A stretch of 64,000 bases of DNA, from contig OX485804.1 of NCBI GenBank assembly GCA_950295325.1, forward strand, positions 48,918,001-48,982,000. Direction: 5' to 3'. This stretch comes from Polytrichum commune (lineage: Eukaryota > Streptophyta > Polytrichopsida > Polytrichales > Polytrichaceae). The notes under the pieces are model-generated. The model was not told the origin of the DNA. It made no database searches and saw only the letters and a program-made list of their open reading frames with translations. Positions 6,319 to 57,600 of the stretch are shown piece after piece (the stretch's first letter is position 1; each line of letters opens with the position of its first letter). A program made the position numbers and the translations under genes.

Positions 6319-9063
6319 ATGTACAGAGAGGCTTGCACTACTGACTACCTCCAGAGAGGAGGTTCTAATTTTGACGAGCAAGCACATAATTACTATAGGA
6401 TCCGAGCAGGAATGCGATCAAGTTTTGATCCACTAAGTCCGCCTGCCGCACTATATTGGAGCAACGCAGGGCAGAGAAGCAACGATGGCGACTTCTCAGC
6501 AGCTGAAGCGCAAGGGCGGCATCGATCAGGGACGCCGGTGCACCTTGGAAGCGGCGCATTCGTGCACCCAAGTCGCCTATCAACAATGCCTCCTGCACCG
6601 TTTAACCCCCCGTCGGGACTTCGATCAGGAGTAGATGCGCAACTTCTGCAGACGTCGCCAATTTCTTCAGCGCCGCAACAAGAGGTTCCAGCAAGTGCGC
6701 CGGCTTCACAACCTTCGTTGCGGCAGGTAATACGTTCTCAGCCGCGTCGACCAGGTCAGATTTCAGCATACATTCTTATTTCAACTTCACAACACCGTCG
6801 TAGCAGCACAAATCTGCATCGTGCACGGGAAATAGACACAGAGCATGCGGCACACATAGAAATAGAGAATTCCCATGATTTGGAAATACAAAATCGACAA
6901 GAGGTAGATAGGGAGAGTGCCGAACTAGGGCCTCACAGCAGACGCTGCAATTGGCAGGACCAAGGGGATCAGAGGCCTTCGCAACAAAGATCAAAGAAAA
7001 GAAAAGTGGGACTATGGAGTGATGCACAAATGAAGGCAGCCATTCTAGCAATAGAGAGAGGAGAGAAAATCAGAGCAGTGTCTAGATTTTTTGGCATACC
7101 CTGTAGCACAATTGCAGATCATTTGCATGGAAGAATTTTGACAAGAAAAAAAGGTCCACCCACAGTGAGGAAAAAACATTAGAGGAGTATATATTAAAAA
7201 TGCAAGAGTACGGATTGCCTCTTAGCATGGATCAACTTCGTTTAAAAGTAGCAGAAATGACACAGCAAAGAGTCACCCCATTTCGTGATGGCATTCCAAG
7301 GAATGGGTGGCTCAAGTGGTTTAAAAAACGTCACCCAAATCTGTCCCTACGGCAATCTCAAGGTCTAGAAATCGCAAGAGCTAAGGGTTTATGTGCAGAG
7401 AACATCAAATCATTTTACTCTAACGTATCTAGCCTCTATGACAAAGAAAAATACCCTCCAGATCGGATATGGAATTGTGACGAAACAGGTGCCCAAGCAG
7501 GCAGAAATGGTGGGGGGCTAGTTTGGGCAAAAAAAGGCACTAGATCTGTGCACAATCTCATGCCTAACGAGAGAGAGTGGCTTACAAACCTAACGTGCAT
7601 AAATGCAGCAGGAGAGTGCATCCATGGGTTCTACATCTTTCATGGAAAAAGAATAAGGGAAAACCATCTAGCTCATTGTGAAGATGGGGTTGTGATGGCA
7701 ATGCAAGAACAGGCGTGGATGACTACAACATTGTTCTCTCATTGGATTTCACATTTTATTAGATCTCTAAGTAACAACGGCGGAATTTCGCAAGAGAGGC
7801 GCCACTTACTGATTGTGGATGGGCACAACTCGCACGTGACACTAGAGGTGGTTTACAAGTGCAAACAGGTGGGTATTGATCTCCTCACCCTACCTAGCCA
7901 CACAAGCCACAGGTTACAACCTTTAGATGTTAGTGTATTTGGTCCTTTCAAGAGATATTTTAAGAGATACAGAGATGCGTGGACACTAAAAAATAGAGGA
8001 AGGGGTGCTTGCAAAAAAATCTTAGCAATGTGGGTCTCAAAGGCACTAGAGAGGGCACTTACACACATGAATATAACCTCTGGCTTCCGCACCACTGGGA
8101 TTTACCCCTTAAATCCCCACGCTATGGATCCCCACATAGGGCCCTCGCAGCAATTCCACAAATCACAGGGCGTGGACCAAGATTGCATGGATTTCGCACA
8201 GTGCAGTACGGGGCAGCTTGCCATGTCACCCCGCGGCAGTGTTCACTTGGACGAAGCAGAGTCGCAGGTGTCCACAGACACCGAATCGGATTCTGAATCA
8301 CAATGCACAGACAGGGTGTTACAAGATATCAGGGGCGACCTGATCGCAGATTCCCAGCAGGAGCGGCAACACTTTTTTGTGCCCCCTCGCGGAGACCAAC
8401 AAGACGACGCTGATGGCCACCTGCACCAGGACGACGGTGGAAGCTGCGCAGAAAGGACAGAGCCACTACCTCCGAACATCTCCTCGATGCCGGAGCTACC
8501 GGAAATTGTTGTGAAGGTGCCTGCGCGGCGCGGCGGAGATCCTCTCATTGATTACTCTCAGTCGTTGCTCCTAACATCTGAAGAGTACATAGCGGCCATG
8601 CAAGAGACGCCGCGATGCTGCTCGAAGAGAGGCGGAGAAGGCAGTTGGCCGAGCAGCGCAAGGTGGAAAAGCAAGCGGAGAGGGCAAGAAAAGAGCTGGA
8701 AAAAGTGCAACAGGAAGCAGAAAAACTAGCACGCAAGGCATTCAGGGCTCGGTGGAGTAAAGAGGCGATCCGAAGCGCAGGTCAGAGGCTCCAAGAACTC
8801 GTAAAAAATCCTCCCCCCCCCGCACCCCAACGGACTACATTGCGCCCTTCCTTGGAATCCTCCCACCCATCTACAAACAAAACATGGCGTTGCGGCTAGC
8901 CAAGCGACGAGCAAGGAAGTTTGCATCTGGCGATCCTCGGGAGGTAGCAGACGCCACCCCGCCTCCGTGGGTGCATCGACCAGATTTGCAGTTTCAAAGT
9001 GAAGGCGACACTACGCCCGAGCACCGAGCTCCTATTCCCGGGCATCGCACAAGCTCCACCTGA
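6319..9063 (+). pseudogene. pogo/Tigger-like (DDE_1, CENP-B-like) transposase with three frameshifts
   Basis: The protein would bind DNA and catalyse cut-and-paste transposition in the nucleus. Visible in order: a basic SKKRKV nuclear-signal-like motif (about 6994), an HTH_psq-type helix-turn-helix (IRAVSRFFGIPCSTIADHL), a CENP-B-like region (GNGW-like NGWLKWFKKRHPNLSL) and the DDE_1 core. The core has WNCDETG, LLIVDGHNSHVTLEV and TLPSHTSHRLQPLDVSVFG, which supply the acidic catalytic positions. The C-terminus is charged and coiled-coil-like (RRRQLAEQRKVEKQAERARK). Reading changes frame near 7164, near 8605 and in a C-rich run at 8815-8822, after which it continues in a third frame to TGA at 9061-9063. 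An ATG in good context at 6485 could be the original start; upstream frames are not convincing. The breaks are single-base indels, so the damage looks young. Confidence 0.85.
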
Positions 9064-9199: not shown

Positions 9200-9732
9200 G
9201 GGCCGCTTTACACCTAGAGGCCGGGCCAATTTCCCTTGAGGCCGATTGCACAAAATTTCAGCCTTTTTTGGGTTGGAGGCCGGCCTCTACTACACATTAT
9301 AATAAGATTATACCGGGGGCCAATTTTCCCATATGTAAAGGCCCTCGGGCCAAGAAGCCAAGCTGATTCAAAAAAATTAGCCTAATCCAACGGATGTAGC
9401 ATAATCTAAGATAGAGCCTTTAGATTCCACATAATCCAATGGATCTAGTTCACTTTAAAAAATTATACTTTATTTAAGAAGATTTTTTTAGTGGAATATG
9501 ACATTGGCCTCTAGGCCAAGAATTGGCCTTCCATTTTGGGTGCACCCAATTCAACGAGCTCGGGCCGTGTCATAACATACATTTTTTAATTTAAAAAATC
9601 ATACCACCAAATCGGCCCGGCCTCTAGATGTAAAGGGGTTGGGGCCGATTTGAGCCTTTTGACCAATCACAAATGAGGATTTCAAGCCTCTTACACAACG
9701 AATTGGCCCGGCCTCTAAGTGTAAAGCGGCCC
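9200..9732. mobile_element. PIF/Harbinger-type MITE (GGGCCGCTTTACAC family), TTA duplication
   Basis: The left end GGGCCGCTTTACACCTAGAG and the right end on the minus strand, GGGCCGCTTTACACTTAGAG, differ at one position in 20. The similarity continues through GGCCGGGCCAATT. TTA flanks both ends (9197-9199 and 9733-9735), the target duplication typical of PIF/Harbinger. It has no coding capacity. Related termini occur at 45980-46312, 47539-47558 and 56858. The two Harbinger transposase loci in this window are candidate sources of the enzyme, but I have not identified their own TIRs. Confidence 0.85.
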
Positions 9733-9744
9733 TTAGTATAGGAC

Positions 9745-10068
9745 GGTTTTAGACGCAAGGCACTCTGGATTTTGATTAATTTTGTCCACTTACAGCAAGT
9801 CCAATTAATTTTGAAAGCAACAATTATGCCTTGGTCCAATGGTTGCACTACACTTGTGCAATTAGGAGGGAGAAAAACAATTGTCACATTTGTCATGGGT
9901 AATGCAGCCGTAAAACCTAACAATTGTTTCTGTTGCACACCAGACAAGGAATGACATGAAGCATTGTCCATAATCAGCAAGATATTACGATATTGTCTTT
10001 TGAAATGGTTGTTAAGCTTTTGCATCCAAGTCTCAAAAATATCTGACCTCATCCATGCAAAAGAAGCG
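9745..10068 (-). pseudogene. Lemi1/Tigger-like DDE_1 transposase fragment
   Basis: Read on the minus strand, the frame contains FETWMQKLNNHFKRQYRNIL, then the catalytic LLIMDNASCH block, then LPPNCTSVVQPLDQGII. These are hallmarks of pogo/Lemi1 transposases. The N-terminal DNA-binding half and the C-terminus are missing. On the right the relic connects to a terminus at 10562, whose minus-strand sequence CAGTCCTACCTCTTTAATAC resembles the Emigrant/Lemi1 TIR and abuts TA. The left end of the element is lost at or near the adjacent MITE. Confidence 0.75.
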
Positions 10069-10562
10069 AAATTTCAATAGTTTTCCAACAATATGCAAAA
10101 CACATCAATCAGATAAAAATTGATCTAAAAACCTCGAATCCAAATTGTGGATGTTAGTTTAGGGTTTAGGGTAAGAGTTGCTGCGGAAAAAACACCAGTT
10201 GATGAGTGTTGTGAGTGTGAGTAGGGTTTTAGAAAGAGAACCTAGTTCCCATGGTTCTCATGTTTATTTCATCATTTTACATTTAAACTTCCTTAATCCA
10301 AACTTCATATGTATAAGATTTATAAATTTAAAATAAATTATGTATTTATATATATATAAGTGTATGGGACCCACCATATAAATGCATCTATTACCTTTAT
10401 AATATGATTATATGACATTTGGGGGGTCTAGGAGTGTCGTATTAACATTGTCATAGTCGTAATATAGAGGTAGATTTGAACTAGGAAGTTTGGTTTACAA
10501 AATTTGTGTCATAATATCGAGGTTGTCGTATTATCGAGTGTCGTATTAAAGAGGTAGGACTG
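10069..10562 (-). mobile_element. 5' terminus of the Lemi1-like element
   Basis: The outer end reads CAGTCCTACCTCTTTAATAC on the minus strand with TA outside at 10563-10564. Internally, the word GTCGTATTA or close variants recurs (near 10434, 10451, 10526 and 10541), a subterminal repeat pattern that could bind a transposase. The stretch between this terminus and the coding relic has no recognised function. Assignment rests on resemblance to Lemi1/Emigrant ends and on linkage to the DDE_1 fragment in the same orientation. Confidence 0.6.
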
Positions 10563-11161: not shown

Positions 11162-11563
11162 ATGGCTTCCAACGCAAAGACCGTTCTCGTGTTCATGCTC
11201 TTGTTGGCCACGGTGATGGCCGCACAAGCTAAGAAGGTGTCTGTCAAGAACAAGTATTGTAAGCCTATCACCGTGAACGGCGTGGTGATCGAAGCGGATG
11301 GGGAAGTCGATGTCGACGTCGATGCAGTTAAAAGCATCGAACTTGACATCGATGTTGAACAGATCGAAGTTTTTGTGAGGGACCTGTTCGGAGGAGATAG
11401 CACGGGAGATTATTCGCTGCCATCGGACGTGACCAAGGTCGAAATTGTGCAGAACGCTCAGGGTCTCGTAGCGAAGGTGCTCGACGCCGCGACAACAATG
11501 GTGGACTCACTCCTCGATGGCATCATCGTCAACGTCAACCTCGAAATCTGCATAAACTTATAA
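11162..11563 (+). CDS. small secreted acidic protein, function unknown
   Basis: This is a single-exon 133-residue frame. Residues 1-23 form a classical signal peptide (hydrophobic core VFMLLLATVMA, likely cleavage after AQA), so the product probably enters the secretory pathway. The mature part is about 110 residues, rich in Asp, Val and Ile, with an alternating VDVDVDAVKSIELDIDVEQI stretch suggesting beta strands. It has only two cysteines (Cys33 and Cys130), which could form one disulfide. No transmembrane segment, GPI signal or known domain is seen. The ATG has a good plant context (AATCATGGC) and a TATA box lies upstream. Codon use is GC-rich compared with the AT-rich surroundings. It looks intact while its neighbours are transposon relics. 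I do not recognise the family. Confidence 0.75.
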   Translation: MASNAKTVLVFMLLLATVMAAQAKKVSVKNKYCKPITVNGVVIEADGEVDVDVDAVKSIELDIDVEQIEVFVRDLFGGDSTGDYSLPSDVTKVEIVQNAQGLVAKVLDAATTMVDSLLDGIIVNVNLEICINL

Positions 11564-13439: not shown

Positions 13440-14017
13440 GTGCTTGATACATTCGAACGATATAGAAAAGCAGGAGTTTAGTTCTTAGCCAAACTTCTTC
13501 ATGAGTTAGCATTGTCCATTTTAACAACGCCCGATTCTAAGTATAACATTCATTCCTTTGATCCTAAAGATGGTATATTGCTTGTGACTAAGATTACTAA
13601 TACTTGAATCCAACAATTTATGGATTCACAAAATATAGTCTTTTCATCCCAACGTGGTAGATTGGTATGTAGTCCATCAAAAGAATTGCATATAGAAATG
13701 CAAACTGCATACCATATGAGAGTTTTACATAGAGGATTTTTGTCAGGAATTTTTCAAGAACATCTTATGGAAAACCTAGATGAAACTCATTTTATTGTTA
13801 ATTTAGATAATGGTAAGACTCTAGGATTTCGTGGTGACACAACCGTTAAATATGTAGATGCTGACTCAGGAGGAGAGTCTATGACCTTTGTTGTTAGAAT
13901 TTCAGGGGGAGCGTTGTTCCACCATAGAAGCTCCTATGATTATTTTTACAAATGAAAATAGAAACTATCATATTCGGAAGTTAATTGACAATGTTCATAG
14001 GGTCATTTATAGGTCTG

Positions 14018-14374
14018 TGTTAAGGACATAGTTTTGGAACCTTCTAAGGACAAATTTCTAGAAAGTTCTAGAAACAAGTCTCTAGAATACTTTAGAATAA
14101 ACTCTCTAGAACATTCTAGAAACAAGCTTCTGGAACCTTTTAGAAACTTCCAATGGAAGTTGGTAGAACCTTCTCTACAAGCTTACGAGTTGGCTCTATA
14201 AGTATATATAGGAGTCGAGGTTGAAGAGTTCTTCAGTCTCGACAACGCACTCCTTAGGACTCTAATCCACCTCTCTGGGTGTTGATCGTGTATTCTTCTT
14301 ATTAATCCAAGTTCCTTAGTAGTTCTTGTTTTCTAGTTTATAATATTTTGTTGGTAATTCTTGTGTCCCTGACA
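14018..14374 (+). mobile_element. solo LTR, 357 bp, with 4-5 bp target duplication
   Basis: The sequence starts TGTTAAGGAC and ends GTCCCTGACA, giving the TG..CA ends of an LTR and an imperfect 10-bp terminal inverted repeat (8 of 10). It is flanked by GTCTG (14013-14017) and ATCTG (14375-14379). Removing it restores the frame of the surrounding transposase (AGGTCT followed by GGTCCTAAAGGA). That proves insertion and reduction to a solo LTR, presumably by LTR-LTR recombination. Internally it has clustered GAA/TTC motifs, then a TATA box (TATATATA at 14203-14210). Its sequence differs from the Ty1-copia LTRs at 17.8 and 21.4 kb. Confidence 0.85.
14056..14135 (+). promoter_or_regulatory. heat-shock-element-like clusters in the solo LTR
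   Basis: Alternating pentamers are visible: TTC (14056-58), GAA (14061-63), TTC (14066-68), GAA (14071-73), spaced exactly two bases apart. A second array has GAA (14109-11), TTC (14114-16), GAA (14119-21), and TTCtgGAA follows at 14128-14135. Perfect nGAAnnTTCnnGAAn arrays are the binding site of heat-shock factors. They lie about 70-150 bp upstream of the LTR TATA box, as in the heat-responsive copia element ONSEN. Activity is inferred. Confidence 0.65.
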
Positions 14375-15164
14375 ATCTGGTCCTAAAGGATGGATGGATC
14401 AATATATTTAATCTGAATTTATTTTTAGATCCTCGTGCATATCAAAGTGATCCTCATGGACGGCAAAAAATTGTATGGTTAGATAACTATAGCGGTCATA
14501 CAATGACACCTAAATTAGAAGCAATCAATAACTTCCAAAATTACTAAATTTTATTATTTTCCTCTATGTTCTACTCATTTGTGTCAACCCACGGATACAT
14601 TTATTATTTCCAAAATTAAGGATTCATGGACTAGGAGATGAAAAGCCAAGAAAACTGAATTGATACAAGCCAATGCATGGCAAGATCAGGCCCGTGTAGA
14701 TGGCCAATGGTCAGGGAAGGTAATCAACCCTGACAAACGTTTTTCCTTGAATTAGCTGCTCTTTGTATTGATGATGTTAACAAAGAAGTAGATGATGATA
14801 ACATTTCATATGCTAGAAAATGTATGATTCGTTATGGTTTAGCATCAGGGTTTGATGGTTTCCACATTTACAGAAAATTATTGCAAAACACTTGCAATAC
14901 TTCCAAGGACAAGATGTGCCACTATTTGTTAGGGCACCATGAATTATAGTGTTTATTTGTTTTTATAATAAAATATGTTGGTATATAAATAAAGCTACGT
15001 TTTGTATTTTATTTTATTCATATATACTCTATTTTATATTTAGTTAACGTTTATCTTGGTGTTAAGTACTTTATAATTTTCTTTGTTCCATACTTAGCAA
15101 CCTAAAATTCAATTGAATGTCTCTTTTAGCATGCTAAATTGTAGTTTTTTGTGACATTTCTCAA

Positions 15165-31612: not shown

Positions 31613-33951
31613 ACCCTTCAAGCTCCCACATCGGAACTGTCGGTACAGACCAGGATTTGAAGGTATTGGGAGAATAAGGAGGGGGCCGCACCCGGCGTCT
31701 CCATGCCGGAAATGGGGCTGACACCGGAGATCCACGGCTAACTGCGTCCACACAAGGCGGTCCCAAAACGGAGCGGGCAGCGGGTTGTCAGAGGCTGTCG
31801 ACTTCTCATTTCTGCCGGAAAGGGTTTCGGGGCTGCCCATACCACCACTATCCTGCCGGAGCAAAATACCAGCGTTCTGGTAGAGCACTTGGATGGCGTG
31901 AATGAAACTACGGGGCTGACGACGAATGTCATCCAAGGCCATCGACGTGCAGCAGCTTGAGCGGTACATTCCAGGGTGGGTGTAGGTTTTTCGAGAGACT
32001 CGGTCGGGGGCTCTGCTGGTCGGGAGGAGCGCAAGTCTTCGGCGATTACAGCAACGCAGCGGTTTCCGAGGTTCGATCACGTTGGGCGCCATCGACCGAT
32101 GCACAACCACAGTCACATTCGCCAACTGCACCGGGAATACCACCCCCAGTTTCGGAATACGGTGGGAGTGGCACCGTGAAACCCCTGTCTGTTCTCTGCG
32201 ATAATCGGTGTGGCGCATGCATTCTTGAGCGTTTTCCACACTGCATCTGGTGGTGGGAGTAGCCGCATGTGGCCTGCGCCGGCCCCCTCCTCGGCAGTTT
32301 TTTTTGGGATCCCTCAGTCCCTGCTGTGTGTAGGTTTTTTGCGTTTGTTATCCTGCTCCTTCCACAAAAGTTGTCCCCAGGGGATGCCGATACAGGCGAA
32401 GGCCATGATCTGCTGGCGTGCCGCTAGCCTTCGAACTCGGCATTGCCCGCCGCTGGACCATGGCGCATGGAAAAACCTGCGGAGTTTCTAGGACTTCCTT
32501 TGAGCTACTATGTCTTCGTGCATCGTTATGTGCTCCATTCCCGGCATTAAGCATGGGCATTTGTAGTTTGCCAGATATTGTGACATACCGTCACCGTCGC
32601 CACAATTCTGCGATCGAGGCCTCCGCGGTCTGCTCTCGACTTGGAGGAGCTATCGCATTTTTTGCCACCTGATTGTAAGTGCTCTCCTTTGCCGTAATGT
32701 TGAGTGCTCCCGCTTTTCTGACCTTCGCGCCTTCCGGCGTGTGCGTTCACTGCTCTTTCTGTGGCTGCCAGCCTGCTCTACCCCTCCGTGTGCTTTGCTG
32801 TGCACCTTCAATGCCCCATTGAGGGTTGGCAAATGTGTGACCTCGTCCGCCGTCTGCAATATTGACGAGGCTGCAACGCCGTGGGTAAATGTGCGATTTC
32901 TGTTGTGCAGGTGCGACCCTCCAATTTGCCGTGCTCTGGGAGGCCCTTTGCTGCTATAAAATTGCGGCGGCAAGGACCGCCCCGAACTCCTGCAAATGTC
33001 CTGTGTGGGCCTCTCGAGGATTATTTGTGCTGCTTTCGTTCCCGCACACTGGTCGTTGCCGCAAACTCGGCAGTGTGTGGTCCGTCATGGATGCCTGGGA
33101 TGCGCAGCTGGCCTCCCAACCATGTCAGAGAGCTTTGGCTAGGGTTCTCGATGTTTGTGGACATCAGATGTAGGCAGTAGTTAGAGGCTGGGCTCAGTAT
33201 GTGCCGCCCTGCCCTTACTCGGCATTCAGTGGTCCATTGTACTGGTGCCCAGTTTGTGTGCTCTGGTTCAATCCTTGGGTGTCGTCCCCCACATTTTTGT
33301 GGTGGTTTCTGGTGCTCCCCTCCATGTCGCCTCTGACACATAAATAAATTTGCACATTGTTTCTTTGATCGTTTGTTAGTGTTGTCCGTTTTCTCCCACA
33401 CCCACCCACTGTCTTGTTTGTGCAGTTCATCATTGGTATTCGCTGCATGTATTCTTGTTGTGTGCGTTCATAGCTGTTAGTACAAGTTCATGCAATCATT
33501 TATGAAATGCCTGTGTGCCACCCACAACCATGAATCTGTTCTTCTCTCCCGCACCGAACCTTCTTGTTTTAACAATTTGTTCTTTACTTGCGATCGATCA
33601 TTGCGTTCCCACAAGGTCGGTTAATCACAAATTATCCCTGCTGTGGCACGCTTTGCGGAATCCAGCGTTTGCTTTGACTGCATGCATGTTTGGGCACATT
33701 GGGAGGTTACTCCATTAATCCAGCAATGTTTGTGGCATGAACACCCTTTCAATCCCACACTATCCACCGCACATTGTGTTCGTGTCAATCCTTCAAGTGT
33801 CCACTCACTCCAGAACCTTGCCTGTTTGGCATGGGTTCCAGAACCTGCTGCAGTGTGCAATCATTTCTGTTCTGTGTCGATGTGTTTTTCCAACTCCAAA
33901 AAGTTTGCTTGTGTGATTCCCAGGTGTCTGATCTGCACATTCTCGGCAGCA
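31613..33951. other. GC-rich block upstream of Harbinger ORF1, no gene recognised
   Basis: Composition changes sharply to GC-rich. Many overlapping frames are open on both strands (up to 217 codons minus at 31586-32239), which is expected by chance at this composition. A plus-strand start at 31926 reads MSSKAIDVQQLERYIPGW before a stop and could be a relic first exon. The last part (33580-33950) ends in an acceptor-like TTCTCGGCAG just before ORF1, so much of this may be leader and intron. Confidence 0.35.
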
Positions 33952-35034
33952 ATGGACGACATTGTTAACCTCGGAGATAGCTCCCAGTTTCCATCCACAC
34001 AATTGCCCCTGGACCCGGAAGGTGGATTCCCAGCCGCTGTGCTTCACGACCTCATGCCAGATCCTTGTGTGCCAATGACTGGGAGGGGTGCTGTGAGTGG
34101 CAGGGGGAGAAACAACAGCGGACAATCATCGCCGTGTTCGTCGCAATCTCAAGCTACACTTCCACACAAGGTGCGAGGGCCCAACTGGACGGAGGCGGAG
34201 ATGCTTGTCCTAATTGGTGAAAAGCGACTCGAATGGGATGGGAGGCACAATTGCAATCAACCCTCACTCGCCAAGTTCGTATATGGCACCACAGCATGGA
34301 AGGCGGTGTTGGCGGGATGCATGGGTGTTGTCGGGTTCAGGGTCAGGGATATTGATCAAATTACCAACAAATGGGATGGGTTGATAAAGGATTACAAGAA
34401 ACTTAAGGATTATATTGAGGCGTCGGGATCCGCCAATTGGTGGGGCATGAGTAGGGTGCAGAAGAAAGATTTTTCTAGGACCAGGAAGATGTCGTTAGAG
34501 TTTAGCGAGGCAATGTACACGGAGATGGAGGGGTTTGTTGGGAAGAGATCAATATTTGGGAGGTCAACGGAGGTTGTTGACTCCGATAGAACTCCACCCC
34601 CTGTGGCTAGACAATCTCAACGCACTACTCCACCACCGCGCGCTCCGTCATCTGTTGGCATAGAGATTCCTCCTGCAGTTGCTGCGACTCCCTCCGACTC
34701 GCCAACAACGCCAACACCTGGCCACGACACCCCGGGATCCACGGGTCGGAAGCGAAAATCTGTGGGAACTAACAACCTTGTTGATTTTGTTAAGGACTTT
34801 AACCATGACTACCTTGCACGCATGGAGGCACAAGACTCGGATAGACGGACATGGAGGACAGACGTTTTGGCTTTCGATACGGCAAGAGAGGCAAGGATCA
34901 GACAAAAAGAAACCGAATCATCACACATGGATCAAAAGTTTTATGAGTTAGAAGTGGAGAGGACCCGAAACTTGGGTAACATGTCGAGCGCTTTGCTCAT
35001 GTTGGCATCAAGTATGGACACTCTCACTAGGTAA
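33952..35034 (+). CDS. PIF/Harbinger ORF1: trihelix/Myb-like DNA-binding protein
   Basis: A 360-residue frame from the ATG at 33952 (context CAGCAATGGACG). After a low-complexity N-terminus, residues about 75-150 form a Myb/SANT-like trihelix domain (VRGPNWTEAEMLVLIGEKRL, then VRDIDQITNKWDGLIKDYKK). A Pro/Thr-rich linker, an RKRKS basic motif and a charged C-terminal helix follow. ORF1 proteins of PIF/Harbinger elements bind DNA and bring the transposase into the nucleus. This one converges with the HARBI1-like transposase, whose stop lies 47 bp away on the other strand. The frame is open further upstream to 33643, but that extension looks non-coding. No internal damage is seen. Confidence 0.75.
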   Translation: MDDIVNLGDSSQFPSTQLPLDPEGGFPAAVLHDLMPDPCVPMTGRGAVSGRGRNNSGQSSPCSSQSQATLPHKVRGPNWTEAEMLVLIGEKRLEWDGRHNCNQPSLAKFVYGTTAWKAVLAGCMGVVGFRVRDIDQITNKWDGLIKDYKKLKDYIEASGSANWWGMSRVQKKDFSRTRKMSLEFSEAMYTEMEGFVGKRSIFGRSTEVVDSDRTPPPVARQSQRTTPPPRAPSSVGIEIPPAVAATPSDSPTTPTPGHDTPGSTGRKRKSVGTNNLVDFVKDFNHDYLARMEAQDSDRRTWRTDVLAFDTAREARIRQKETESSHMDQKFYELEVERTRNLGNMSSALLMLASSMDTLTR

Positions 35035-35081
35035 TCATTCCTTGCCCTTCAACCTTTCAATTCATGTGCTATACAACAAGC

Positions 35082-36799
35082 TCATCTCCTAGGCTGGTTT
35101 CCTCTATGGTTAGCATTTTGAATGCGAACCAAGTAGTCCACAAGATCTTCCCGCGCCATTTGTCCTTCTAGCAAGGCACGATCTTCGCTCACGAGTCCCA
35201 TAGGCCTCGGAGGCGTGAAGAAAGTGTCTTCATCTCTGTGTGCAATTTCGGTGTCGTCCATTGGAGGCAGGTGGCAGTCGATTAAAATTTGGTCTAGCGT
35301 CCGGTCCTTGCTTGCAAGGAGGATGTTGTGCAGTACACAACAAGAGTGCACAACTGTAGGCAAGAAGTCTAGTTTTAGCGAAGACTTTGTTCCAATCTCC
35401 TTAAATCTTGACTTCAAAATTCCGAAAGCTCTTTCCACGCTCATTCTTGTTGAGGAGTGCTTTCTGTTAAACCAAACCTCTTCTCTTGAGAGCGGCACCC
35501 CCATAGGTCCCATCTTGAATGGTGTAATGCACCAGCTCAAGAGAGGATACCCACGGTCTGCAACAATGTAGGGGGGGAAGGGTAGATGCGATGGCCAAGT
35601 TAGAGGATCATCGTGAAAACCTCCCATTGTTCCCTCACCCACCTTCCGGTACAGCTCGGAGCTCTTGAAGTGAGCACTATCGTGTAAGGACCCGGGTGGC
35701 CCGGTGTTGATTGACGTGAAGTAGCACTTGCTATCAACCACACCTTGTAGGAGAATAGAGAAAGACTTGTAGCGGTTGCGGTGGTCTGCCGCTACGATGG
35801 TGCTTGATGGCGAGGCAATGTAGATGTGAGACCCGTCTATGGCACCAATGCAATTTGGAAGCCATTGCTTGGATTGGAAGGCAGTAGCGATCCGCGAAAG
35901 CCTCCGACCCACCGGCCATGCTATCAGATGCCCAAAGTTAATGGCTATGGCAGAACACACCTGCCGCAAGATCTCGCCGACAGTTGATTTTCCCAGAGTT
36001 GCTTTGTCTGCCACCAAGGGTATGGAAACACCGTGCATCAATTTGAACAGGGTGACCACAATTTTCTTTCAACTCCTATAGGCTGTCTCCAACGCGTGTG
36101 TTGGCCCCGGATGAATGGCCCAAGATCGTGCACCAGCCTGTCAAAGGTCCTCCGTCTCATACGCAAAATGTCGTAGAACATGTCGGGTGTGTAGATCTTG
36201 AACAAATACTCCTCAAACCAGCACGTCGATCTCGGTTTCACATACCATCTTGCGTTCTCCTCACCAATGTGCCAAGCTAGGAGGTCCGCAACTTGCTTCC
36301 TGTGCGGGTGTTCCAAACAATCTTCCTCCTGTCCATGCTGGTCCAAGGATCTGAGTGTGGAAGTACAAACATCAACCCCGTATCTCCCCCTCATCTGTTT
36401 CCTTCTTGCAAAATGTAATCCGCTTGCTTCCGTTGTTGCCAAGTACATTGACACGATAACCACACACATGTCGATGCAATTGAGCAATATACGAAGAGAC
36501 GAAGGTATATCATGTGAGGCCATTGGACTGTGTGTTGTTGATATATGTAGGGGGATGGTGTCAGGACCCCCGCAAGGCCACAACGGAGGGCTGCGTGGAT
36601 ACACCGAGGGTGGGCGTGGAGGAGAGCACACGGCTCCCAGGGGCTCTCTCGGAAGGTCCCACAGTGGTGGCAATGTGGGAGAGGCGGGTACTTCACGGCA
36701 GCGAGGCTCAAAAGAGGCTGGGGCGGGAGAAGGTGGATCCAGCTCGGACGCGGATTGAGGATCCTCGACTTGTGTGGCTTCTGGAACCTTGAATGGCAT
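35082..36799 (-). pseudogene. HARBI1-like (DDE_Tnp_4) Harbinger transposase, one frameshift
   Basis: The C-terminal frame (36059-35082) carries the catalytic core: CIGAIDGSHIYIASP (first Asp), PPYIVADRGYPLLSW (second Asp) and MSVERAFGILKSRF (Glu), followed by CCVLHNILL. The preceding frame (36799-36038) contains WFEEYLFKIYTPDMFYDILR and RRTFDRLVHDLGPFI, the usual N-terminal helices. The two join near 36063-36066 at an A run (GAAAGAAAATTG), where one missing A explains the shift: VERK.. then IVVTLFKLMHG. Apart from this the gene looks well preserved. It would cut at TIRs and target TWA sites. The 1-base loss could also be an assembly error. Confidence 0.85.
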
Positions 36800-55340: not shown

Positions 55341-56651
55341 CTAATTATCTTCATACATGTTTTGACCTTTCAAAGTCCACAAGTGCTCAATCAGATCTCC
55401 TCTCAGACTGTAGTGAATATCCTCATCTTCTATTTCCTGTGTGTGTTCCAGCAACTGTTCAAAAGTTAATCCTCTCTCCATGGGAACATTGTCATCAAAT
55501 GCAGCCCCAAGTACATTTTCAAGGCCCTGCACACCATTCTCATCATCAATTATCATGTTGTGCAAGATGCAGCAAGCGAACATGATGTCTGAGATCCCTT
55601 GCATTCCCCACTGTCGGCAAGGATTCTGAATGATTGCAAAACGTGCCTGAAGAACGCCAAAACACCTTTCCACATCCTTATGGCAAGCTTCCTGTCTTTT
55701 CGCAAAGTGTTTCCTCTTCTTGTCCTCTGGGTTGTGGATGCTTTGTACAAAGCAGCTCCATTGCGGGTAAATACCATCAGCCAGCAGGTAGTAGCGGTTG
55801 TACACCTGCCCGTTAACCTCAAAGGTCATGTCGCATGCTGCACCGCTCAGCAAGTCATGGATCAAGGGAGACCGATCCAAAACATTAAGGTCATTGTTCG
55901 AACCGGGGAGGCCAAAATCAATGTGCCAAATGTGCAAACTCTGGTCTGCCACTGCTTCCAGGATAATTGATTTCTTGCCGTCTTGATCGCCAAAGTCACC
56001 TTGCCAAGCCACAGGGCAATTCTTCCACTCATAATGCATGCAATCCAAGGAACCAAACATACCTGGAAATCCACGGGCCTCATTGATGGCGAGCTGTTCC
56101 CGACAATCCTCGTACGTGGGTTTCCGCAGGTAGTAGTCCCCGAACTCTGCACGCACTGCAACACAAAACCTGCCCATGCACTCCATGGCGGTGGAGTCAC
56201 TCGTTCGGCAATAGTCGTCCATGGCATCTGCACACAGTCCCAGTGCTAGCATCCGCAGTGCAGCGGTTATCTTTTGGCGCGAAGACAACCCCAGCAACCC
56301 AGCGGCATCTCTTTTTTGAACAAAATACACATCCCGGGCACACACCCTCTCCATAATATAACAAAAAAGCGACCTTCTCATGCGATATCGGCGCCGAAAG
56401 ATATGAGGGCCATAAGTAGGACGATCAGCAAAGTAGTCCTTGTGCATCTGTGCATCCATAATTACTCTGTCACGCTCGATGTTAGCTGCCCTGCCTTGCC
56501 ATGAGCCGCCCGCAGCTCTCCGTGACGGGGCTTCATAGTCAATGAAGTTCTGGAACTGATCAACTGCCATTTCCATGTTCGCGTCATCATCTTCGTCGTC
56601 CTCCAAAAACCTCTCACGGGATTCCTTAAACCTAGATCTCCAAGCCTCCAT
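55341..56651 (-). CDS. intact PIF/Harbinger transposase (plant transposon protein, DDE_Tnp_4/Plant_tran)
   Basis: The 436-residue frame has no stop or shift. The N-terminus is acidic (FLEDDEDDDANMEM), followed by FRRRYRMRRSLFCYIMERV and an HTH-like KITAALRMLALGLCADAMDD region. The catalytic triad is present: Asp203 in GSLDCMHYEWKNCP, Asp292 in YYLLADGIYPQW and Glu328 in DVERCFGVLQARF. The family motifs WHIDFGLPGSNNDLNVLDRS and CCILHNMIIDDE are intact. I chose the ATG at 56651 (GGGGGGATGGAG); the frame stays open to 56723 with a hydrophobic 24-residue extension that looks non-coding. The enzyme would cut the element at its TIRs and insert at TWA. It faces ORF1 at 49.9 kb in convergent orientation. 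Confidence 0.9.
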   Translation of the reverse strand: MEAWRSRFKESRERFLEDDEDDDANMEMAVDQFQNFIDYEAPSRRAAGGSWQGRAANIERDRVIMDAQMHKDYFADRPTYGPHIFRRRYRMRRSLFCYIMERVCARDVYFVQKRDAAGLLGLSSRQKITAALRMLALGLCADAMDDYCRTSDSTAMECMGRFCVAVRAEFGDYYLRKPTYEDCREQLAINEARGFPGMFGSLDCMHYEWKNCPVAWQGDFGDQDGKKSIILEAVADQSLHIWHIDFGLPGSNNDLNVLDRSPLIHDLLSGAACDMTFEVNGQVYNRYYLLADGIYPQWSCFVQSIHNPEDKKRKHFAKRQEACHKDVERCFGVLQARFAIIQNPCRQWGMQGISDIMFACCILHNMIIDDENGVQGLENVLGAAFDDNVPMERGLTFEQLLEHTQEIEDEDIHYSLRGDLIEHLWTLKGQNMYEDN

Positions 56652-57600
56652 CCCCCCAAGAACGATAGAATAAACTTTCAACACAATCCTCCAAAACCCA
56701 ACCCTAAAACCACAACAGAACACTGCTCAGAACTTTAAAAAACTCCGCCACAACACCATGGAACCTCTTGTATGTCAACACGCCCGCGTACTAATAAACC
56801 TCCCAACAACCGCACGAAAATGAACCCACAAGCACCCACACACACACACACTACTTAGTGTCGCTTTACACCTAAAGCACCCACATACTCCTTCAATAGT
56901 TCCAACAAAATTTAAGAACACACTCCCCAAAACTCTTTATGAAAGGCTTCACAAACACCCGTAAACCACCTCTAACACAACCTAAAATATCCCCAAACCC
57001 CACGACCTACACTCCTCCGACATAATGCGAGCAATTTAACCCAAAACCATAACAAAATCCCTAAAAACATATAAGGAGAACTCATTGGAAAATTGCCAAG
57101 CACAATATGTGCTCCCACCTTGGTGTGCACTGCTAATTACGGAGGCGAAGAATGGGGAAGGGAAGCATGGGCGGAGAGGAAGCTGGGAGGAAGGGGGAGG
57201 AGCGGTGACGTGGAAAAGGAGGAAGGGGGGTGGAAGGCCACGGTGTCAGACCGTGGCCCCAGGCAACGCCAAGTGTCCCGTTGGCGCTGACATGCCCGGG
57301 CACGCTGGCTCCATGGGCGGGGCCCGACCCTGGAAGGTCGCCGGCTCCCTGCACAGCTGCCCTCCCCCCGTTGGCGTTGGGGGGAGCCGGTGGCCATGCC
57401 CTCAAAGGGAGGGAGGGACGTGGGACATGATGGGTCATGGGCCGGCCGGCAGCCACAAGCTCAACTTGCAAAAAGTTGAAGTTTTGGGCCAAGGTAAGAG
57501 GAATTTGGACCATTATTATAAGTGCCCGAGATAGTGGAGTTTTGGTGCCTCTTTTCTTTGGCTTTATTATGAACTTTTAACCTCAAGATGAGCCACACTA
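56652..57600. other. 5' flank of the transposase; GC-rich tail with inverted similarity to 49.7 kb
   Basis: A MITE-like terminus, GTGTCGCTTTACACCTAAAG, begins at 56858 after TTA (56855-56857) but has no partner end. The minus strand of 57361-57405 (GGGCATGGCCACCGGCTCCC, then CCAACGCCAACGGG) matches 49697-49737 on the plus strand, bracketing ORF1 and transposase. These are probably subterminal inverted repeats of the second Harbinger element. Frames open here (up to 149 codons) look random. Confidence 0.45.

Follow-up and report, generated by a model that had tools for sequence, protein, structure and literature searches.

A solo long terminal repeat (LTR) at positions 14018-14374 of the plus strand of the 64,000-nucleotide stretch of Polytrichum commune DNA analysed here (the window) carries arrays of alternating GAA and TTC units. 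Alternating nGAAn units are the binding sites of HSF trimers. Among heat-activated LTRs whose HSF site is known, the best-documented cases are Ty1/copia elements of flowering plants. The locus raises the question of whether a moss LTR family has a promoter built for host heat shock factors (HSFs). Our preferred reading, to which we give a probability of about 0.72, is that the LTR comes from a low-copy Ty3/gypsy chromovirus whose U3 array of heat shock elements (HSEs) would be bound by host HSFs and would drive a heat-induced, self-primed element.

The preliminary description had called this copy a solo LTR, and its borders are exact. It is a complete U3-R-U5 unit with TG...CA ends (TGTT at the start, GACA at the end), delimited by the alignment of 20 family LTRs, and it has no internal region. 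The target-site duplication, GTCTG at 14013-14017 and ATCTG at 14375-14379, matches in four of five bases, with one mismatch. The insertion is hosted by a degenerate transposase relic on the plus strand (approximate limits 13482-14950), which lies outside the element and is recognised from ORF fragments. A Pfam search with fragments of this transposase assigned no family. A paralogue at C4:3186 kb lacks the LTR, and the joined flanks align with it continuously across the junction at about 64% identity; an empty paralogous site therefore exists, confirming the insertion. The window copy is at least 8% diverged from every other family copy and is therefore among the older ones. Its internal part would have been lost, presumably through LTR-LTR recombination, with partial decay afterwards.

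Elsewhere in the window are Tc5/pogo-type transposase ORFs (6319-8726; HTH_Tnp_Tc5, DDE_1), an additional DDE_1 fragment (9624-10073), a PIF/Harbinger-like pair made up of a Myb/SANT-like ORF on the plus strand and a DDE_Tnp_4 transposase ORF on the minus strand (33625-36068), and a long open frame on the minus strand matching Plant_tran / DDE_Tnp_4 at 5.5e-86 (55344-56726). The small protein encoded by an ORF at 11162-11560 begins like a signal peptide and matches no Pfam family.

The tetrameric and trimeric arrays first noticed in the LTR, at 14056-14073 and 14109-14121, are exact and lie far above chance. They sit on the plus strand and belong to a 24-bp block repeated four times in tandem, every block being a TTCnnGAAnnTTCnnGAA in intact or worn form. 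The first block (14056-14073) alone is fully intact, a 4P-type array of four units, TTCTAGAAAGTTCTAGAA. The second (14080-14097) is degraded to CTCTAGAATACTTTAGAA; the third (14104-14121) opens with a degraded unit and continues with the three perfect units GAACATTCTAGAA at 14109-14121; the fourth (14128-14145) is partly degraded (TTCTGGAACCTTTTAGAA). The second, third and fourth were placed by the 24-bp repeat register and alignment. The further GAA/TTC pairs that had been described start at 14037, 14128, 14143 and 14166. By alignment, the first of these is a proto-HSE pair, GAAnnTTC, near the LTR start (14037-14044, plus strand), and the last is an outlying GAAnnTTC pair nearest to the TATA box (14166-14173, plus strand). 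In 20,000 dinucleotide shuffles of the window LTR, a run of at least four units had P = 5e-5, while seven or more units within runs of at least three, and six or more runs or pairs, were each reached in 0 of 20,000.

Besides the window copy, a whole-genome search recovered 19 further LTRs (82-92% identity), which brings the family to at least 20 copies; several weaker matches are mostly confined to the TATA/R region. The search for full-length relatives that the preliminary description had proposed yields six LTR pairs (L009-L014), with LTR starts 5.4-5.9 kb apart. Among the other solo LTRs, s15, s18 and s21 have perfect 5-bp duplications, as does s19, allowing for a slightly shortened end. 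The paired LTRs have diverged by 2.4-6.1% (K2P, array left out), and the family may therefore be inactive today.

Frames of L009 and L014, read piecewise and unrepaired, encode gag, an aspartic protease, reverse transcriptase (RVT_1, 3.8e-35), RNase H (RT_RNaseH, 6.4e-33), integrase zinc and core domains (Integrase_H2C2, 3.5e-19; rve, 1.3e-8), a Tf2-1-like SH3 domain (SH3_Tf2-1, 6.7e-10) and a chromodomain (Chromo, 1.4e-14). In both, the RT-RNase H frame precedes the integrase and chromodomain, which is the gypsy-type order; in Ty1/copia elements INT comes before RT. The family is a Ty3/gypsy chromovirus with a C-terminal chromodomain. The LTR had been described as unrelated-looking to copia/ONSEN, which the domain order bears out; with a gypsy-order internal region and a chromodomain, copia/ONSEN membership is ruled out. 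The chromodomain motif EYEV...YWSGY reads directly in the L014 frame and, set beside HP1, may hold the three aromatic-cage residues. Domain order, chromodomain and primer complementarity suggest that this low-copy family is Tcn1/Tf1-sushi-like. The relevant passages of PMC6317226 describe Tcn1 clade chromoviruses of mosses and club-mosses, and Tf1/sushi elements, with the order Gag-PR-RT-RH-INT-chromodomain and a self-priming site by the 5' LTR, like the present family, and with aromatic-cage residues, which the present family may share. Those passages mention no HSE arrays in the plant members, whereas the present family has them. A Selaginella element has neither kind of primer site (PMC2864245), unlike the present family with its self-priming site.

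The HSE-type arrays lie upstream of a TATA box, as the preliminary description had it. Every one of the 20 family copies retains this box (TATATATA, 14203-14210, plus strand), as do most sister LTRs. In full-length copies the 5' LTR is followed by GT and TTGTCGAGACT, which is the reverse complement of AGTCTCGACAA. In the window LTR, AGTCTCGACAA occupies 14235-14245 (plus strand) and forms the start of R; its complementarity to the sequence lying 2 nt beyond the 5' LTR makes it the predicted transcription start and self-primer. From this primer site the transcription start of the family is predicted at 14235. Its distance of 32 bp from the beginning of the TATA box fits a TATA promoter. Because the primer site sets the LTR border, self-priming as in Tf1 is argued for, and the primer complementarity suggests that the family would prime itself in this manner. 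Farther downstream than the self-priming site, 24 nt from the end of the 5' LTR, most of the full-length copies L009-L014 also have GGTATCAGAGC, which we take to agree at 11 of 12 positions with the primer site for initiator tRNA-Met usual in plants. In the sister family this sequence is degraded. It is either a relict of tRNA priming or a coincidence.

The preliminary description had made its reading depend on the GAA/TTC spacing being kept among other LTRs of the family, and it is: each of the 20 LTRs found has, at the same U3 position, one or more runs of at least three perfect units in alternation, and the longest perfect run per LTR ranges from 4 to 9 units. Only 12 loci in 408 Mb have runs of at least six perfect units, and this LTR family accounts for 10; the reversed-pattern control for six-unit runs gave 0-1 site genome-wide. 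Runs of at least five units are found in 15 family LTRs and 14 other places in the genome; four-unit TTC-first runs number 165 genome-wide, against 60 for the control. A chance origin of the arrays is ruled out by the shuffles and by these run counts relative to the reversed-pattern control.

Outside the family, three same-sequence five-unit arrays and some shorter ones lie within 1.2 kb at G000:C2:37796914-37798106 (L068/L076), where no known gene was recognised in the neighbourhood, and an LRR receptor-like gene has a seven-unit array at its 5' end (L049, G000:C7:8286161-8286193).

The genome, which has plant-type TTTAGGG telomeres, encodes HSFs (five DNA-binding-domain matches). As a control on host HSE usage we considered small-HSP genes, and a four-unit HSE stood above shuffles in only 3 of 15 upstream regions examined. 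No recognisable HSP gene was present among the nearby ORFs scanned at non-family loci with 5-7 units. The HSE grammar of the host is therefore only weakly confirmed.

The array also varies in length in a regular manner. Most gaps in the aligned arrays measure 10 or 20 bp, and a few measure 14, 24 or 34 bp (10n+4, a block-plus-linker step); the exceptions are a single 1-bp gap and a 12-bp gap just beyond the array. Since the length changes are mostly of 10/20 bp, or of 10n+4 at block borders, HSE phase is kept. In the usual replication scheme the two LTRs of a pair are identical at insertion. Array length nevertheless differs between the 5' and 3' LTR in six of six full-length elements, the 3' array being the longer in four of the six, and thus the array appears to change in place.

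A set of sister LTRs (L040, L041, L043, L044, L047, L048) bears on the origin of the arrays. Where complete, they begin with the same TGTTAGGGACATGAC and have the TATA box as well as AGTCTCGACAA; the primer site is shared too where it is visible. Their repeats are built on ACTTTAGA, and in-register units never exceed two. Two of them have a GAAnnTTC pair at the place equivalent to 14037-14044. This distribution fits a single-lineage gain of arrays that began with a proto-HSE, the route proposed for ONSEN (PMC5059998); the opposite polarity, a loss of arrays in the sister LTRs, is possible. A wider scenario is that the self-priming chromovirus arrived at the ONSEN strategy independently: HSE dyads would have arisen through changes to a repeat in U3, 10-bp slippage would add or remove HSF sites in register, and the strength of the heat response could be tuned by repeat number. 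We offer it tentatively, its chances being a little short of even.

By analogy with the Brassicaceae COPIA elements, HSF-driven heat induction would best explain the family, and its arrays are probable HSF-binding sites. In the proposed course of events, heat stress would most likely bring host heat shock factors to the HSEs of the tandem array in the family U3, placed some 30-150 bp upstream of the TATA box. Bound HSFs would then drive transcription from about 14235, and the 5' end of the RNA could pair with the complementary site adjoining the 5' LTR, priming its own reverse transcription.

It is possible, if unlikely, that we are dealing with a neutral minisatellite, in which replication slippage expanded a TTCTAGAA-like palindrome by 10 bp at a time; the array would then resemble HSEs in sequence only and take no part in HSF-driven transcription. 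The array does appear to change length in place, with 5' and 3' LTRs differing in every full-length element, and its cores are no better conserved than the remaining LTR: GAA/TTC core columns vary by 5.4% among copies, against 3.1% for the remainder, so that purifying selection on HSE cores left no sign among the family copies. The TA centre of TTCTAGAA, in contrast, varies in 0.9% of cells and the NN spacer between dyads in 12.9%, which a neutral repeat does not readily explain (Fisher P = 2e-9, indicative only, since the choice of consensus-dyad columns favours TA and the copies are related). We read the selection signal as mixed, with an unusually stable dyad centre and cores of dispersed copies without sign of preservation. 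A minisatellite also sits poorly with the fact that every copy has its array directly upstream of the TATA box, divided into several distinct blocks of equal alternation. Whatever its origin, a perfect run of at least four units is of the type tied to strong heat induction in other LTRs (PMC5059998).

That the array serves another factor or stress (ABA, wounding and development are examples), so that any binding of HSF would be incidental, we consider quite improbable. Strict GAA/TTC alternation at 5-bp steps, up to nine units, is an HSF signature, and we know of no factor other than HSF that requires it. This alternative draws on the moss gypsy family RLG2, which according to the relevant passages of PMC7466625 responds to ABA as well as heat. 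The earlier suggestion that this solo LTR could be a heat-inducible promoter or enhancer leads to a further reading, in which a host gene has co-opted it; this is compatible with HSF-driven induction of the family, but hardly credible. The copy does retain its TATA box and predicted start, together with an array each of the 4P and 3P types. A host role is nevertheless unsupported: the LTR lies inside a dead transposase, only transposon debris is recognised downstream, the recognisable same-strand ORF there being a copia fragment, and the copy itself is diverged (by at least 8% from all others), with degraded HSE blocks and its array partly lost.

HSF-driven induction of the family has close precedents. 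ONSEN (COPIA78), TERESTRA, COPIA37 and ROMANIAT5 of Brassicaceae have LTR arrays of the 3P/4P HSE (HRE) type, as here, and in those COPIA LTRs heat induction of up to about 100-fold is associated with predicted 3P arrays, and of up to about 1000-fold with predicted 4P arrays; the ONSEN 4P array arose by duplicating a proto-HSE, and the picture here is similar (PMC5059998). Those elements are Ty1/copia, whereas the present family is Ty3/gypsy, with a chromodomain and probable self-priming, and its arrays reach nine uninterrupted units and vary in 10-bp steps. The Cryptococcus LTR retrotransposons TCN3 and TCN12 are mobilised at 37 C, and their LTRs contain one or two putative HSEs (PMC12810828), but they are fungal and their HSEs isolated, in contrast to the long arrays described here. 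RLG2 of Physcomitrium patens is likewise a moss gypsy LTR retrotransposon induced by heat; the source passages do not describe HSEs in it, and its tree follows plant species, hence it is not necessarily Tcn1-like (PMC7466625). Heat-induced gypsy elements have already been reported in bamboo (PMC8656106, PMC9780303). The Ty3/gypsy LTR promoters of PHRE1 and PHRE2 of Moso bamboo were studied under heat stress, in a report whose main text contains no HSE or HSF term (PMC8656106). In Caenorhabditis, HSE-bearing Helitrons spread tandem, overlapping HSEs bound by HSF-1 (PMC6927752); these are animal DNA transposons, whereas the present element is an LTR promoter.

The principle of a heat-activated LTR is thus not new; what varies it here is the superfamily, the length of the arrays and their in-register length variation. 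If our reading is true, a chromovirus with arrays in every copy found, set against array-free sisters within one genome, would represent the same solution in another LTR superfamily. The natural variation among its copies, with longest runs of 4 to 9 units, would let the relation between HSE number and heat response be tested.
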